Shown: positions 16,039 through 30,419 of the stretch, piece by piece
How the letters are laid out: every line of letters starts with the position of its first letter
Numbering within the stretch: the stretch's first letter is position 1
DNA from: Campylobacteraceae bacterium
GTDB taxonomy: Bacteria; Campylobacterota; Campylobacteria; Campylobacterales; Campylobacteraceae
Direction of reading: 5' to 3'
Assembly: GCA_031263195.1 (NCBI GenBank)
Contig: JAISGD010000026.1
Coordinates: forward strand, 1 to 64,000
DNA length: 64,000 bases
Notes under the pieces: generated by a model
What the model saw: the letters and a program-made list of their open reading frames with translations, nothing else
Told to the model about the DNA's origin: nothing
The model's database searches: none
Translations under genes and position numbers: made by a program

Positions 16039-18570
16039 ATGGCAATCGGTTCAAGCAATTTTTCCATTTGGTGTGATTTTATAGAGAGAGAATTTCTGTC
16101 AAGCGAGCTTCCGGCGCTTATTGATTCGGGTATAGTAAGCGGTGTCACGAGCAATCCGGTTATCTTTAAAAACGCTATTTTAAACTCTAAAGCATATGCG
16201 GAAGACAGAAAAAAGAGTATAGATATGCTGCCGCAGGAGAGATATGAATTTTTGGCTGTAGATGATATTAAAAATACTGCCAAACTTCTTTTGCCGACAT
16301 ATAAAGCGGATAATCAAGACGGGTTTGTAAGTATGGAAGTAAATCCGTTATTTTCCGCAAATACTGAAAAAATGGTAGAAGAGGCAAAGAGGATTTATAA
16401 AAAAGTGGGTATGCCTAATGTTATGATAAAGATTCCGGCGACAGAGGCAGGATATGAGACAATAAAAGAGTTGATTATAGAAGGTATAAATGTAAACGCT
16501 ACCCTTGTTTTTTCTCCACAGCAGGCAGGTAAATGTCTTCAAGCGATAGAGAACGGATTTTACATATTTCAGCGCAGAAATCCGAAAAAAGCATTTCCTC
16601 AAGTTGTTATCAGTGTTTTTGTAAGCCGTTTTGACAGGAAATTGGACGCAAGATTGGAGACGGTCGGATTTGAAAAAATGAAGTTTGGCATTATGAACGC
16701 TTCGTATATCTACCAACTTATCAGAGAACAGAAAATCTCTAATGTAAGGTGTCTTTTTGCGAGTACAGGCGTTGGAGATCCGTCTATTGATAAATACTAT
16801 TATATTACGAGTTTAATGTATAAAAATGCTGTTAACACTGCTCCTTTAGCCTCTATAGAGAGTTATATGGAAGTACTTGATACAGACGAGAGAGTCTGTC
16901 CGCCCAAAGAAAATATTCAAAAATATTTTGCGGATATAGAGTCAAGAGGTATTATATTAAAAGAAGTATATACTTCGCTTCTTGAAGAAGGATTGGAGCA
17001 ATTCAACAAAGCTTATAGAGAGATGCTGGAGAGTTTAAGAGTGACAAATCAGGAGATTGAAGAGTTAAAAGTGGCGGAAAGAGCCGAACAGGAGCGTATA
17101 GAGTTTGAAGCGAGGAGAAAAGAGGATGAGATGAAAAGAGCAGAAGAGGCTAAAAAAACTGCGCAAGAGGCTGCACAGAGAGCTGAGAAGGAGAGATTGG
17201 AGAAAGAGGCGCGCGAAAAAGCGCTTGAAGATTTAAAAAAACAGACGGCTGTTGCTCAAGCAAGTGAAGAAGTTAAAAGTAAAAAAGGTGCGGAAGTGAG
17301 CGTTGATGTTAAAATCAATAAAGCCTCAAGAGCCGAAGCAAGAAGAGCTGCCGCTCAGGAGCGCTACAAAAGTCCGGTTATGAGAGTGCTGGAAGGATAT
17401 CTGAAAGATCTCACTTCGTATAATGGAAGCGATTTGCATATAAAATCAGACGCTGCCGTTAAAGGACGTGTGAATGGAGAGATTGTAACTGTGAGTAATA
17501 CCATCTTCAAAAAAGAAGAGGTAGATATCTTAGCAAGAGAAATTTTGCAGGACAGATATGAAGAGTTTACAAAGAAAAAAAATATAGATTTTACTTACAA
17601 GCTTGATGAGGATTATCGGTTTCGTGTCAATATGTTTTATCAAACAGACGGTATTTCGCTGGTATTTCGTGTAATTCCGCTGAATATTCCCAGTGTTGAA
17701 GAGCTCGCTTTGCCACTTATCATAAAAGAGTTTGCAGCTAAAAGAAGAGGGCTTGTGTTGGTGACGGGACCTACCGGAAGCGGTAAAAGCACCACTTTAG
17801 CGGCTATTATAAGCCTCATAAATCAGATAAGCCAAAAGCATATTATTACTATCGAAGACCCTATAGAGTTTATCTACAAAGATGAGCAGAGTATCATCAA
17901 TCAGCGCGCTATAGGACAGGATGCGGTTAGCTTTTCGGATGCTCTTATAGCATCTTTAAGAGAAGATCCGGATGTGATTATGGTGGGTGAAATGAGAGAC
18001 GTAGAGACAATCAGAACGGCGATTCGCGCGGCGGAAACGGGACATCTTGTGCTTTCTACATTGCATACGCTTGATGCTAAAGAGACGGTAGGGCGCATTA
18101 TCAGCATGTTTGACGGTAACGAGCAAGTTCAGATTCGCCACTCGTTGGCTTCTGTGCTTCAAGCAGTTATTTCGCAAAGGCTTGTAAGGCGTAAGGATGA
18201 CAAAGGAAGGATTGCGGCTATTGAAATTTTGATTAAAAACGAACGTATAGAAGCGATGATAAAAGAAGGCAGAGAGGATGAGATAAAAGACTCTATCGAA
18301 GACGATAGTGATGTTTACGGTTCGCAGAGTTTTAATCAATCGCTGCTCGATCTTTACATTAATGATTTTGTTAGTTACAATGAAGCGCTTTATGCGGCTA
18401 CATCGCCTACTGATTTGAAAATTCTGCTTGACAATTACGATATAGAAAGACATACGGGTATTAAGCGAGGCGGCACGAGAAGGCGTATCGATTTTGATGA
18501 TGACGATGAGATAAGCGAGAATGTAACGGTTGATTTGGACGACGACGACATTTTATCATTGAAGCGGTAA
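16039..18570 (+). CDS. Transaldolase-coiled coil-PilT/PilU ATPase fusion
   Basis: One uninterrupted 843-residue frame. Residues 1 to about 333 are a complete transaldolase, with GVTSNPVIF, the Schiff-base lysine in NVMIKIPAT (K131), VNATLVFSP and a C-terminal LLEEGLEQF. Residues about 335-440 are a Lys/Glu/Ala-rich coiled coil. Residues about 445-800 are a retraction-type pilus ATPase: SDLHIKSDAAVKGRVNGEI, Walker A GPTGSGKST (577-585), VIMVGEMRD (646-654) and a His box ending LSTLHT. The C-terminal part (EGREDEIKDSIEDDSDVYGSQSFN in part, then ISYNEAL-like and DLKILLDN) is more like PilU than PilT. An acidic tail (DFDDDDE, DLDDDD) ends the protein. Transaldolase is normally a separate soluble enzyme of about 325 residues. 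AAAGGA lies before the ATG. No stop or frameshift separates the halves. Confidence 0.93.
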   Translation: MAIGSSNFSIWCDFIEREFLSSELPALIDSGIVSGVTSNPVIFKNAILNSKAYAEDRKKSIDMLPQERYEFLAVDDIKNTAKLLLPTYKADNQDGFVSMEVNPLFSANTEKMVEEAKRIYKKVGMPNVMIKIPATEAGYETIKELIIEGINVNATLVFSPQQAGKCLQAIENGFYIFQRRNPKKAFPQVVISVFVSRFDRKLDARLETVGFEKMKFGIMNASYIYQLIREQKISNVRCLFASTGVGDPSIDKYYYITSLMYKNAVNTAPLASIESYMEVLDTDERVCPPKENIQKYFADIESRGIILKEVYTSLLEEGLEQFNKAYREMLESLRVTNQEIEELKVAERAEQERIEFEARRKEDEMKRAEEAKKTAQEAAQRAEKERLEKEAREKALEDLKKQTAVAQASEEVKSKKGAEVSVDVKINKASRAEARRAAAQERYKSPVMRVLEGYLKDLTSYNGSDLHIKSDAAVKGRVNGEIVTVSNTIFKKEEVDILAREILQDRYEEFTKKKNIDFTYKLDEDYRFRVNMFYQTDGISLVFRVIPLNIPSVEELALPLIIKEFAAKRRGLVLVTGPTGSGKSTTLAAIISLINQISQKHIITIEDPIEFIYKDEQSIINQRAIGQDAVSFSDALIASLREDPDVIMVGEMRDVETIRTAIRAAETGHLVLSTLHTLDAKETVGRIISMFDGNEQVQIRHSLASVLQAVISQRLVRRKDDKGRIAAIEILIKNERIEAMIKEGREDEIKDSIEDDSDVYGSQSFNQSLLDLYINDFVSYNEALYAATSPTDLKILLDNYDIERHTGIKRGGTRRRIDFDDDDEISENVTVDLDDDDILSLKR

Positions 18571-26653: not shown

Positions 26654-26737
26654 ATATTTTATCATAAACTTTAAGATTTTCTAAATCAAAACGCCTTTTC
26701 ATATATATTTAAAATAGTTTATGCAATAATATTGCAC

Positions 26738-26743
26738 TATAAT
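26738..26743 (+). promoter_or_regulatory. Probable -10 element of the VWA-phosphatase-kinase operon
   Basis: TATAAT, 14 bases upstream of the ATG at 26758, follows an AT-rich region (GCAATAATATTGCAC). The short distance would make a leader of only a few bases. The RBS-like AAGGG lies just before the start. Confidence 0.5.
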
Positions 26744-26757
26744 TATAAGGGTTAATT

Positions 26758-27603
26758 ATGAAAGAGCAGGCGCAGATTAATAGAAAAAACCCAACAGCGT
26801 TTCTGTTTGTTGTAGACCAATCGCTTTCTATGGGATATATAATGCCCGCGGTTAATAAACCGAAAGCTAAACATGTGTCCGATGTTATCAATAGAACCAT
26901 CCTCAATCTAATAGACCTTTGCAATAAAGCCGATGGCGTAAGGGACTATTTTTATGTAGGTATTATCGGATATAACGGCAGAGGTGTAAAAAATGCGCTT
27001 TTTGATGAACAGGATAAGGATATATTAAATTCCATATCGCAAGTTGCCGATAATGTAAAAAAGATAGAACACATAGTCGAAAAAGTTGACAACGGTCTTG
27101 GCGAAATAGTGGAAAAACATATAGAGTTTCCGGTATGGATGGAACCTGATGCAGATGGCGAAACACCTATGTGCGAAGCTTTTGAATTAGCCAAGAATAC
27201 GCTTGATGAGTGGTGTAAAAACAACCCTAACTCTTATCCGCCGACACTTATACATATTACAGACGGCGATTCCACAGACGGTAATCCGGAAGAGATAGCC
27301 GAAGATATTAAAAAACTTTGCACGCTTTACGGCAATGCGCTTATATTTAATTTGCACGTAAGTTCGTTTGACGCCAATACTATAGAGTATCCTTTCAGCG
27401 ATAATAATATTACCGACGAGTATGCGAAAATGCTCTTTAAAATGTCAAGCGTATTTCCTGAAAATTTGATAGGTAAAGCTAATGACAGAGGATATAGAGT
27501 CGTCAATAATTCAAGAGGTTTTATATTTAACGCAGATGCTGTCGATGTCGTAAATTTTCTCGAGATAGGTACGCTGCCGACAAATCCATTTAAAAGACGA
27601 TAG
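26758..27603 (+). CDS. von Willebrand factor A protein, TerY/YegL-like
   Basis: A 281-residue VWA protein. The metal-ion adhesion site is complete: DQSLS (D20, S22, S24), a Thr in DGETPMCEAF, and the Asp in HITDGDSTDG. There is no signal peptide or membrane segment, so it should be cytoplasmic. It is the first gene of a three-gene operon with a PP2C-like phosphatase and a kinase-like protein. That trio resembles the TerY-phosphatase-kinase triads described around tellurite-resistance-type systems and E. coli yegL-yegK-yegI. The role of the VWA protein there is thought to be scaffold or sensor. The client is unknown. Confidence 0.85.
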   Translation: MKEQAQINRKNPTAFLFVVDQSLSMGYIMPAVNKPKAKHVSDVINRTILNLIDLCNKADGVRDYFYVGIIGYNGRGVKNALFDEQDKDILNSISQVADNVKKIEHIVEKVDNGLGEIVEKHIEFPVWMEPDADGETPMCEAFELAKNTLDEWCKNNPNSYPPTLIHITDGDSTDGNPEEIAEDIKKLCTLYGNALIFNLHVSSFDANTIEYPFSDNNITDEYAKMLFKMSSVFPENLIGKANDRGYRVVNNSRGFIFNADAVDVVNFLEIGTLPTNPFKRR

Positions 27604-27614
27604 GATATGGGTAA

Positions 27615-28355
27615 ATGGAGCTACTATTTTGCGGCTCAATACCTAAAAATGATTGTAAGCCATGTGAAAATGAGGACTATTATAATATAGGTGCATCTGG
27701 GCAGAATGTGCGTATAGCTGTCAGCGATGGCGCTACTATTTCATATGACTCAAAAAATTGGGCAAAAAGTCTGGCTGACTATTTTGTGCAAAAGGGCGCT
27801 ATCTCAAACAAAAATATGAACAGGCTCATCAAATCCTATTACTCCGGCTACTCAAATCGATTTGATTTTAAAAATTTAACACTTTTTCAGCGGCGTGGAC
27901 TTAGATTTGGCAGTTATGCGACCATACTTGGTGTAGAGTATAATTTTAACTCAAATCTAATGCAACTTGTCGGTGTTGGGGATAGCGTCGCTATTTTATT
28001 GGATAATTATACATTTGTGGACTCTTTTCCTTACTCTTTCGCAAAGGATTTTAGAAAAAATCCGAAACTTTTGAGTGCCAAAAAAAAGCACAATTACTTC
28101 TTTTCACACTCGAAAGAGTATGGCAAGTTTTATAAACTATGGGAACTTTCATCTATTTGTCAGCCTGTACTGCTTTGTATGACGGATGCGCTTGGAGAGT
28201 GGGCGTTCAAAAGTTATGAAAGCGGTAATGCAAATGTATGGAAGGAGCTTGCAGGTATAGCCGGTGTGAGAGATTTTAAGAGATTTGTTGATAAAAAGCG
28301 AGCCGATGGGATTATGAAGATAGATGATACTACGCTTATTTGCATGAAGTTCTAA
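27615..28355 (+). CDS. PP2C-like serine/threonine phosphatase
   Basis: A 246-residue protein of the PP2C superfamily in a divergent form. Metal-site motifs are NEDYY near residue 21, IAVSDGATIS (D38, G39), VGVGDSVAILL, CMTDALGEW and IDDTTLICM, in the expected order. It lies 11 bases after the VWA gene and nine before the kinase. An overlapping ATG at 27607 is in another frame and runs to an early stop; the frame at 27615 carries the motifs. It probably reverses phosphorylation by the downstream kinase. Closest in layout, as far as I know, are the YegK-type phosphatases. Confidence 0.8.
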   Translation: MELLFCGSIPKNDCKPCENEDYYNIGASGQNVRIAVSDGATISYDSKNWAKSLADYFVQKGAISNKNMNRLIKSYYSGYSNRFDFKNLTLFQRRGLRFGSYATILGVEYNFNSNLMQLVGVGDSVAILLDNYTFVDSFPYSFAKDFRKNPKLLSAKKKHNYFFSHSKEYGKFYKLWELSSICQPVLLCMTDALGEWAFKSYESGNANVWKELAGIAGVRDFKRFVDKKRADGIMKIDDTTLICMKF

Positions 28356-28364
28356 AGGATAAAT

Positions 28365-30419
28365 ATGTCGTCAAGTTACCCAAATTCAAATGAATACAGA
28401 GCAGCTTTTCAGTATGTGAAAGAGAGTTTGACAGATCCTGTTTTGAAAGAGGGCATTGTTAAAACAAATTCGCTGGGACCGCAAGTATTCAGCGGTAATT
28501 TTGCTTATGCATATGAGATTACTTCTCAATACAGGATAAAATATGCCGTGCGTTGTTTTCGTTACCCTTCGAGAGACCGTGAAGAGCGTTATGTTGCCAT
28601 ATCAAAATTTTTGAAACATTTGAAATCCTACTATTTTGTCGACTTTGAGTATCAATCTGACGGTATTACTGTCAGTGGCATAAAATATCCTATTGTAAAA
28701 ATGGCATGGATAGACGGCGTTTTGTTGGGACAGTTTATATCGGAAAATTACTCTAATAGGCGCAGGCTTAAAAATCTCATAACATCTCTTATCGCACTTG
28801 CGAGATTTATCGAACATAGTGGGTTAGCGCATGGTGATATACAAACAGGTAATATCATCGTAAATAATGACGGCAGGGATTTAAAGCTTATAGATTATGA
28901 CGGCATGTATGTAAGAGATATTAAAGAGTTGGGCAATTGCGAATGCGGCACACCGAATTTTCAACATCCGCAAAGAGGTAACGCTTGGAATGCAAAGTTG
29001 GACAGATTCTCGTTTATCTGCTTGTATGTCGCTCTTAATGCGCTTATAGAGCAGTACTCTTTATGGGAAGAGTTATCGTGCGACGAGGAGTCTATACTAT
29101 TTGTTACTTCGGATTATGAAGATACAAAAAATTCAAAAGCTTTTCATAAATTAATGCAGATTGAAAATATGAAAGAGGATGCACAAAAGTTTAAAAGAAT
29201 CTGTGAAGCTCCTTTTGACAAAATCCCCTCGCTTGATGATTTTATTGCCGGCGATAATATACCCAATTACTATCATACAAGTAAATTTGTATATTTTGCG
29301 AGCGCTATTATATTACTTGTTGCAGGTGTGGTCTATTTGCTGGAAAATGGTTACACGATTGATACTATATATCAAAAAACAGGCGCAAAAGAGCAAAACA
29401 TGAAAACGGTTAATGAGTTGCAAAAGGAAGCGGCGATAAATATATACAGCGTGCGAGATTATACCGATACGATTAGACAGCTTGATGATTTGCATATGCA
29501 GTTGCCAAACGATAATGATATACGGCTGTTATCTGCCATGACATATGCCGTAAGCGGTTATGACGATGCCAAACTCTCGGCACTTATTACGCCGCTGGAA
29601 GCGAAAAAAATGGAGGATTCAAGACTCTATTTTGTTTTGGCAGTTCTTTATTGGCGTAAAAATGATATGCAAAATGCGAAGTATTATGTAGATTTGACAA
29701 AAAATGACATGCATATGGACAGTAAGTTAAAAAGGCTCTCAATTTCATTTGCCGATATTATCGATATACAGCTAAACGCCTACAATCGTCATAAAGATGC
29801 TTTTAATGGTAAAGACAACGATATATTTGCTGAAGCGATGGTTTTATGGGAAAATAATTATGCACTGAAAGAGTATTTTGAAGAGATATTTTTGGACGGA
29901 TTTATCGGCTTTTCCAACGAATATGAATTTAATATTGAGCATCAATCATTTGCGGAGTGGTTTGATGCTTATGCAAGTTATAATATGGGTAAAGGATTGA
30001 AATCGCTCATAAAATTATATGATCGACACCCTAAAAACGCACAGCTTTTATATTTGATAACGACTAATATTGCTAATCTTTATATCGAAAACAGTGAAGG
30101 TAAATGCTATTTTCGCCGCGATAAGTATTTAAAAGTTGCCAAAGAATTCGGTGAAGAGTTGGCAGTAATCAACGCTAAAAGAGCTATAGATTTTGCTAAA
30201 GAGTTAGCTGAATTGCCTTTTTCGCAAACTCAAAGTTACTATGCTCTTGCCCTTGCGTATTATGCGAACGGCGAGCTTGATATTGCCGCCGGTATCGCAA
30301 ATATCGCTAAAACAAAATTAACAAATGAGGATTCAAACGAAATACGAGAAAAGATTGCAGCGCTTCTTATCCATATAAATGACAGTATTGCATGCAGGTC
30401 TAATAGTAAAACGCAATGA
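28365..30419 (+). CDS. Membrane-anchored kinase-like protein with helical-repeat tail
   Basis: A 684-residue protein. Residues about 35-290 form an Hanks-type kinase fold: HGDIQTGN (catalytic D158, N163) and DYDG in place of DFG (177-180), then CGTPNFQHP as the activation segment. The glycine loop is weak (SGNFAYAY), and the usual VAIK lysine aligns with Arg in YAVRCF (R63), so activity is uncertain. One membrane helix spans about 308-326. The remaining 350 residues are alpha-helical with TPR/Sel1-like pairs (YFVLAVLYWRKNDMQNAKYY, SYYALALAYYANGELDIAAG) and should lie outside the cytoplasm. E. coli YegI-type kinases instead carry other C-terminal domains. It ends the trio; leuA converges downstream. 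Confidence 0.8.
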   Translation: MSSSYPNSNEYRAAFQYVKESLTDPVLKEGIVKTNSLGPQVFSGNFAYAYEITSQYRIKYAVRCFRYPSRDREERYVAISKFLKHLKSYYFVDFEYQSDGITVSGIKYPIVKMAWIDGVLLGQFISENYSNRRRLKNLITSLIALARFIEHSGLAHGDIQTGNIIVNNDGRDLKLIDYDGMYVRDIKELGNCECGTPNFQHPQRGNAWNAKLDRFSFICLYVALNALIEQYSLWEELSCDEESILFVTSDYEDTKNSKAFHKLMQIENMKEDAQKFKRICEAPFDKIPSLDDFIAGDNIPNYYHTSKFVYFASAIILLVAGVVYLLENGYTIDTIYQKTGAKEQNMKTVNELQKEAAINIYSVRDYTDTIRQLDDLHMQLPNDNDIRLLSAMTYAVSGYDDAKLSALITPLEAKKMEDSRLYFVLAVLYWRKNDMQNAKYYVDLTKNDMHMDSKLKRLSISFADIIDIQLNAYNRHKDAFNGKDNDIFAEAMVLWENNYALKEYFEEIFLDGFIGFSNEYEFNIEHQSFAEWFDAYASYNMGKGLKSLIKLYDRHPKNAQLLYLITTNIANLYIENSEGKCYFRRDKYLKVAKEFGEELAVINAKRAIDFAKELAELPFSQTQSYYALALAYYANGELDIAAGIANIAKTKLTNEDSNEIREKIAALLIHINDSIACRSNSKTQ

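Follow-up and report, generated by a model that had tools for sequence, protein, structure and literature searches.

Three adjacent genes on the forward strand of the window, i.e., of the whole 64,000-nucleotide stretch of a Campylobacteraceae contig that was analysed, encode a TerY-P phosphorylation triad in the broad sense, since PADLOC models match all three proteins. Such a trio is already known as a kind; new are the sensor swap in its kinase, a TPR-like ectodomain restricted to one genus, and a fixed genomic locus. On balance, we lean towards reading it as a membrane-anchored TerY-P variant that works as a transmembrane Ser/Thr phosphorylation switch sensing the periplasm.

The first gene (26758-27603) codes for a TerY-like VWA protein of 281 amino acids (full-length PADLOC TerY match, E 6.3e-105), the second (27615-28355) for a PP2C-like Ser/Thr phosphatase of 246 amino acids (full-length PADLOC PP2C match, E 2.3e-64), and the third (28365-30419) for a TerY-P kinase of 684 amino acids, in which PADLOC STK_OB covers residues 4-308 only (E 1.4e-112). 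Gaps of 11 and 9 nucleotides separate the three open reading frames, which lie exactly where a first-pass annotation, made from the sequence alone, had put a VWA, a PP2C and a kinase gene. General resources are less informative, as Pfam yields sub-threshold matches for the VWA protein and the kinase and none for the phosphatase, NCBIfam gives the kinase weak kinase-like matches only, and single-sequence searches of the PDB with the VWA and PP2C proteins find no relatives. Across many phyla, genes for PP2C and TerY precede the kinase gene in most related loci, and the distances between TerY, PP2C and kinase sequences correlate (r 0.95-0.99). The window proteins keep an intact MIDAS, an intact PP2C metal site and the kinase motifs HGD, N and DYDG. 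The MIDAS of the VWA protein (D20-S22-S24-T136-D169), correctly described as intact from the outset, is invariant in 72-73 relatives, and so are the metal-binding aspartates of the phosphatase (D21, D38, D191, and D237/D238) in 76-77 relatives.

The kinase consists of a kinase domain (residues 1-300), a transmembrane helix (residues 308-326) and a TPR-like ectodomain (residues ~330-684), a layout derived from PADLOC, hydropathy, AF2 and fold searches. The helix (29286-29342, forward strand; hydropathy 2.5 over 19 residues) is the single hydrophobic segment of its kind, as had been proposed, and hydropathy places a counterpart at the corresponding position in all members of the genus. About 355 residues follow it. 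The ectodomain (29352-30416, forward strand) is predicted by AF2, from 11 orthologues, to be entirely helical (mean pLDDT 82.9, pTM 0.78), and its best matches in Foldseek and VIA-align are TPR arrays, e.g., 119 residues at 2.7 A, with Z values of a size that is not very specific among helical repeats. Pfam TPR_14 is matched by 10 of the 11 orthologous ectodomains (best E 6.9e-6); the window protein's own TPR matches fall below the Pfam cut-offs, its repeats being degenerate. In the PDB, a profile of the ectodomain picks out designed TPR proteins for the most part. Signals from sequence and from fold therefore both identify a TPR repeat domain, and the roughly 350 residues of TPR-like helices that the first-pass annotation had described, and to which it had tied its proposal, are borne out by structure prediction. 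Its wider claim of a VWA-PP2C-kinase signalling operon with a membrane kinase is right as well. In an AF2 model of the full kinase from a 12-sequence alignment, the kinase half is poor and too weak for geometry.

It is at the kinase tail that the trio departs from its relatives. The STK_OB match stops at residue 308, kinase residues 4-308 aligning with model positions 2-308, and the OB profile, which finds 26 other kinase tails, misses that of the window kinase; the OB fold at the kinase C-terminus that marks the OB-fold TerY-P defence subtype is thus absent. Among 70 members from outside the genus, in which transmembrane segments were called by hydropathy only, 26 carry an OB tail, 31 an internal transmembrane segment followed by 100 residues or more, and 9 a terminal one; a WD40 tail occurs at locus L065 and TPR tails at L034 and L060. 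In the kinase-domain tree, in which a deeper node has a support of 0.98 and the inner nodes are weak, the genus clade falls within a group made up mainly of OB-fold kinases. Because of this nesting, the OB tail was probably lost in the genus kinase and replaced by a transmembrane helix and TPR-like domain. The ectodomain profile has no match outside the genus in 397 Campylobacterota genomes, nor does it match the tails of other TerY-P kinases. The initial view that this architecture had no known example thus holds for the tail itself, found only in this genus, but not for its general design, since a transmembrane segment followed by a large domain is common in the family and a transmembrane segment combined with TPRs occurs separately at L034, in a MAG labelled Chloroherpeton thalassium. 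That triad resembles the genus trio, but its transmembrane segment is much further from the kinase (380), its TPR region is short, if clear, no homology between its tail and the ectodomain of the genus is detectable (HMM 0.6 bits), and its grouping with the genus clade has a support of only 0.11. Even within the genus the TPR-like ectodomain is dispensable, as one kinase (L028 1899-2984, from G009:C56; 60% TerY identity) ends about 40 residues after the transmembrane helix and has no such domain. TerY-P kinases thus swap one sensor tail for another (OB, zinc ribbon, tail anchor, transmembrane segment with other domains, TPR, WD40), while the core of TerY, PP2C and kinase stays constant. One congener, G005, possesses a second, OB-fold TerY-P triad (L035/L018, G005:C192), which has a C-terminal tail anchor and adjoins truA; with an OB and a TM-TPR version in one genome, it offers a natural pair for comparing the role of the sensor tail.

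Upstream, the trio is flanked by hisC, dxs and a gene for a Fur/PerR-family regulator, and downstream by a convergent leuA, which confirms the placement between perR and leuA given by the first-pass annotation, with the reservation that the matches of the regulator to PerR models are below their cut-offs. The closest named records are Campylobacteraceae MAGs. TerY is encoded in 12 of the 14 genomes of the genus, and in the 10 further species for which flanking sequence exists the trio follows dxs-perR, preceded by hisC wherever the contig reaches that far. Downstream neighbours vary: the window has leuA, as do two relatives, and other genes take its place elsewhere. At the syntenic site of G013, a CAP-domain gene and then ahpC come after dxs-perR without the trio, while its relative G004 has the order perR, EptA-like gene, trio, ahpC; the trio is thus dispensable in the genus, one congener lacking it at this site. 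G008 lacks the trio as well, but also a good dxs match, so that the contig may be missing. In three other genera of the family, dxs-perR occurs without the trio. TerY is rare across the wider order, being found in 2 of 398 sampled genomes, its own included; the weak matches that the kinase gives in the order's other families (E ~1e-4) were put aside as the usual remote similarity among kinases. TerY, PP2C and the kinase domain have omega values of 0.02-0.10, much as dxs and hisC do, and the ectodomain, wherever dS can be measured, has values of 0.12-0.17; all are rough because several dS values are saturated. The trio is vertically maintained under strong purifying selection. Synteny in 10 congeners rules out a recent horizontal insertion in the window, and the earlier picture of an accessory module in core DNA does not fit a set that keeps one position genus-wide with one demonstrable site lacking it. 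An origin as phage or plasmid cargo was also rejected, there being no match in phage records and only distant ones in two cyanobacterial plasmids. At least one version of TerY-P is thus a vertically kept trait of a genus and not a mobile cassette. The EptA-like gene of G004, by eye coding for a phosphoethanolamine transferase of 532 amino acids (L124:11789-13387, minus strand), is situated between perR and TerY, reads in the direction of the trio and is absent from the window.

Several known systems share the combination of a kinase with a PP2C phosphatase. Closest is the OB-fold TerY-P system (PADLOC PDLC02222/3/4), which has an identical set and order of genes and strong homology in all three proteins, whereas the window kinase replaces the OB tail by a transmembrane helix and TPR-like domain and its genes occupy a fixed housekeeping locus. 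Alongside CoCoNuT systems there are TerY-P modules whose kinase bears a zinc ribbon (PMC11090510), and a TerY-P island has been described in H. pylori (PMC4978471). These have the TerY-PP2C-STK triad in common with the window and occur in Campylobacterota too; unlike the CoCoNuT type, the window kinase has no CxxC in its tail, hence no zinc ribbon, and its neighbours are housekeeping genes instead of CnuH/CnuE, McrBC-like or helicase genes. The first-pass annotation had likened the trio to Ter-linked triads and to E. coli yegLKI. The name TerY-P had been missed, and the comparison with yegLKI holds for a distant analogue only. E. coli yegL-pphC-yegI encodes a VWA protein, a PP2C and a membrane Ser/Thr kinase as well, but the similarity to the window proteins is weak, none of YegL, PphC and YegI matches a TerY-P model, and YegI possesses two adjacent hydrophobic segments and a tail of its own, features that the window kinase lacks. 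In threonine phosphorylation of T6SS (PpkA/PppA/Fha), a membrane kinase with an extracytoplasmic domain also works with a PP2C. Neither an FHA protein nor the sheath protein TssB/VipA was found in the genome, and FHA-based and T6SS readings were discarded for this reason. A Ter (tellurium/TerD) system was discarded likewise: the absence of TerB, TerC and TerD genes nearby had been seen correctly, and no TerD-family protein is present anywhere in the 99.7% complete assembly, control genomes being positive in the same search.

How might such a triad work? The kinase domain, from its use of ATP, should face the cytoplasm, and one helix would cross the inner membrane. The TPR-like domain would then reside in the periplasm, probably disulfide-bonded, and bind an envelope protein or peptide, and such binding, or its loss, would change kinase activity. 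PP2C would reverse the phosphorylation, while TerY, judging from its domains and the TerY-P family models, may employ its metal site as an adaptor between kinase, phosphatase and substrate. An envelope or stress response is more likely as output than phage defence of the mobile type.

This mechanism presupposes that the kinase is active. The first-pass annotation had observed, accurately, that Arg replaces the lysine of VAIK and DYDG replaces DFG, and had suggested a pseudokinase or altered ATP binding. If it were a pseudokinase, Arg63 and DYDG would abolish catalysis, and the protein would be left as a scaffold that holds PP2C and TerY at the membrane. Atypical as these motifs are, the pseudokinase reading is without support because both are norms of the family: the VAIK position is occupied by Arg in 47 and by Lys in 10 of 57 TerY-P kinases, and D158 of the HxD motif, N163 and D177-Y178-D179-G180 are invariant in all 57. 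A PP2C partner in the operon argues against it, too, as does E. coli YegI, which was published under a title by which it lacks conserved motifs. In PMC13232886, YegI is reported to be a membrane-bound Ser/Thr kinase that undergoes autophosphorylation and from which PphC removes the phosphate, a precedent for the proposed switch. A pseudokinase is thus highly improbable, and we dropped it. The mechanism also presupposes that the C-terminus lies outside. Were the hydrophobic segment a membrane-associated or re-entrant helix, the helical domain would be cytoplasmic and might offer cytosolic partners a TPR docking platform, as in the cytosolic kinase PknG or in YegI. The positive-inside rule is indecisive, since the window kinase has one lysine or arginine before the helix and three after it and some other members have four before and two after; moreover, YegI and several more distant relatives possess two neighbouring hydrophobic segments. 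Only one such segment exists in the window kinase, however, and a periplasmic ectodomain with a putative disulfide is favoured because cysteines 581 and 677 are invariant in 11 of 11 orthologues, even though identity in the ectodomain falls to 31%. No cysteines beyond this pair occur in the ectodomains of 10 of the 11, and the genome encodes DsbB. We consider a cytoplasmic C-terminus rather unlikely.

With a transmembrane switch as the preferred reading, the nature of the output has to be weighed. The first-pass annotation had named homologues with the same trio and a known function as grounds against its proposal, and an anti-phage role is reported for the OB-fold version: activity against T7-like phages is described in a commentary (PMC7699616) that discusses Gao et al. 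2020, and in PMC11090510. An anti-phage system of this type, in which the ectodomain of the membrane kinase senses phage adsorption or the entry of DNA and the phosphorylation switch sets off dormancy or cell death, is possible, if unlikely. The kinases of the genus branch within the OB clade, matches of DRT2, HmaA, DrmD/DrmA or BREX type occur within three ORFs of related triads, and an OB-type TerY-P kinase of 548 amino acids with a hydrophobic C-terminal end is encoded on a putative viral contig (L137, IMGVR_UViG_3300043568_003080, 102-1748), near genes resembling phage structural genes. But the window kinase lacks the OB tail, its gene neighbours are housekeeping genes, 50,697 phage records contain no match, and a vertically kept locus with housekeeping-like omega is unlike typical mobile defence. 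Also unlikely is the idea that one genus domesticated what had been an immunity module of TerY-P type, its OB sensor of nucleic-acid type being swapped for a transmembrane helix and periplasmic TPR receptor; if so, an intracellular phage-response kinase would have become an envelope sensor kept in the regulation of the genus.

Upstream of the trio, a promoter block (26699-26731, forward strand) is near-invariant in an alignment of eight congeners and contains an extended -10 element, TATGnAATAAT, at 26720-26730. The TATAAT at 26738, which the first-pass annotation had taken for the operon's own promoter, was rejected since it is not conserved in these eight congeners. Overlapping the block, and just downstream of the Fur/PerR-family gene, a perfect 7-1-7 palindrome, TGCAATAATATTGCA, is located at 26722-26736; it was discarded as a Fur-type box, its right half not being conserved in more distant congeners. 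Elsewhere in the window, an ORF of 843 amino acids (16039-18570, forward strand) seems by eye to join a transaldolase-like N-terminus to a PilT/PilB-type ATPase through a coiled-coil linker. The single open frame recurs across the genus, with about 802-906 amino acids on intact contigs, and seems to be fused in G023 too, whereas in many other families the two parts give separate matches.
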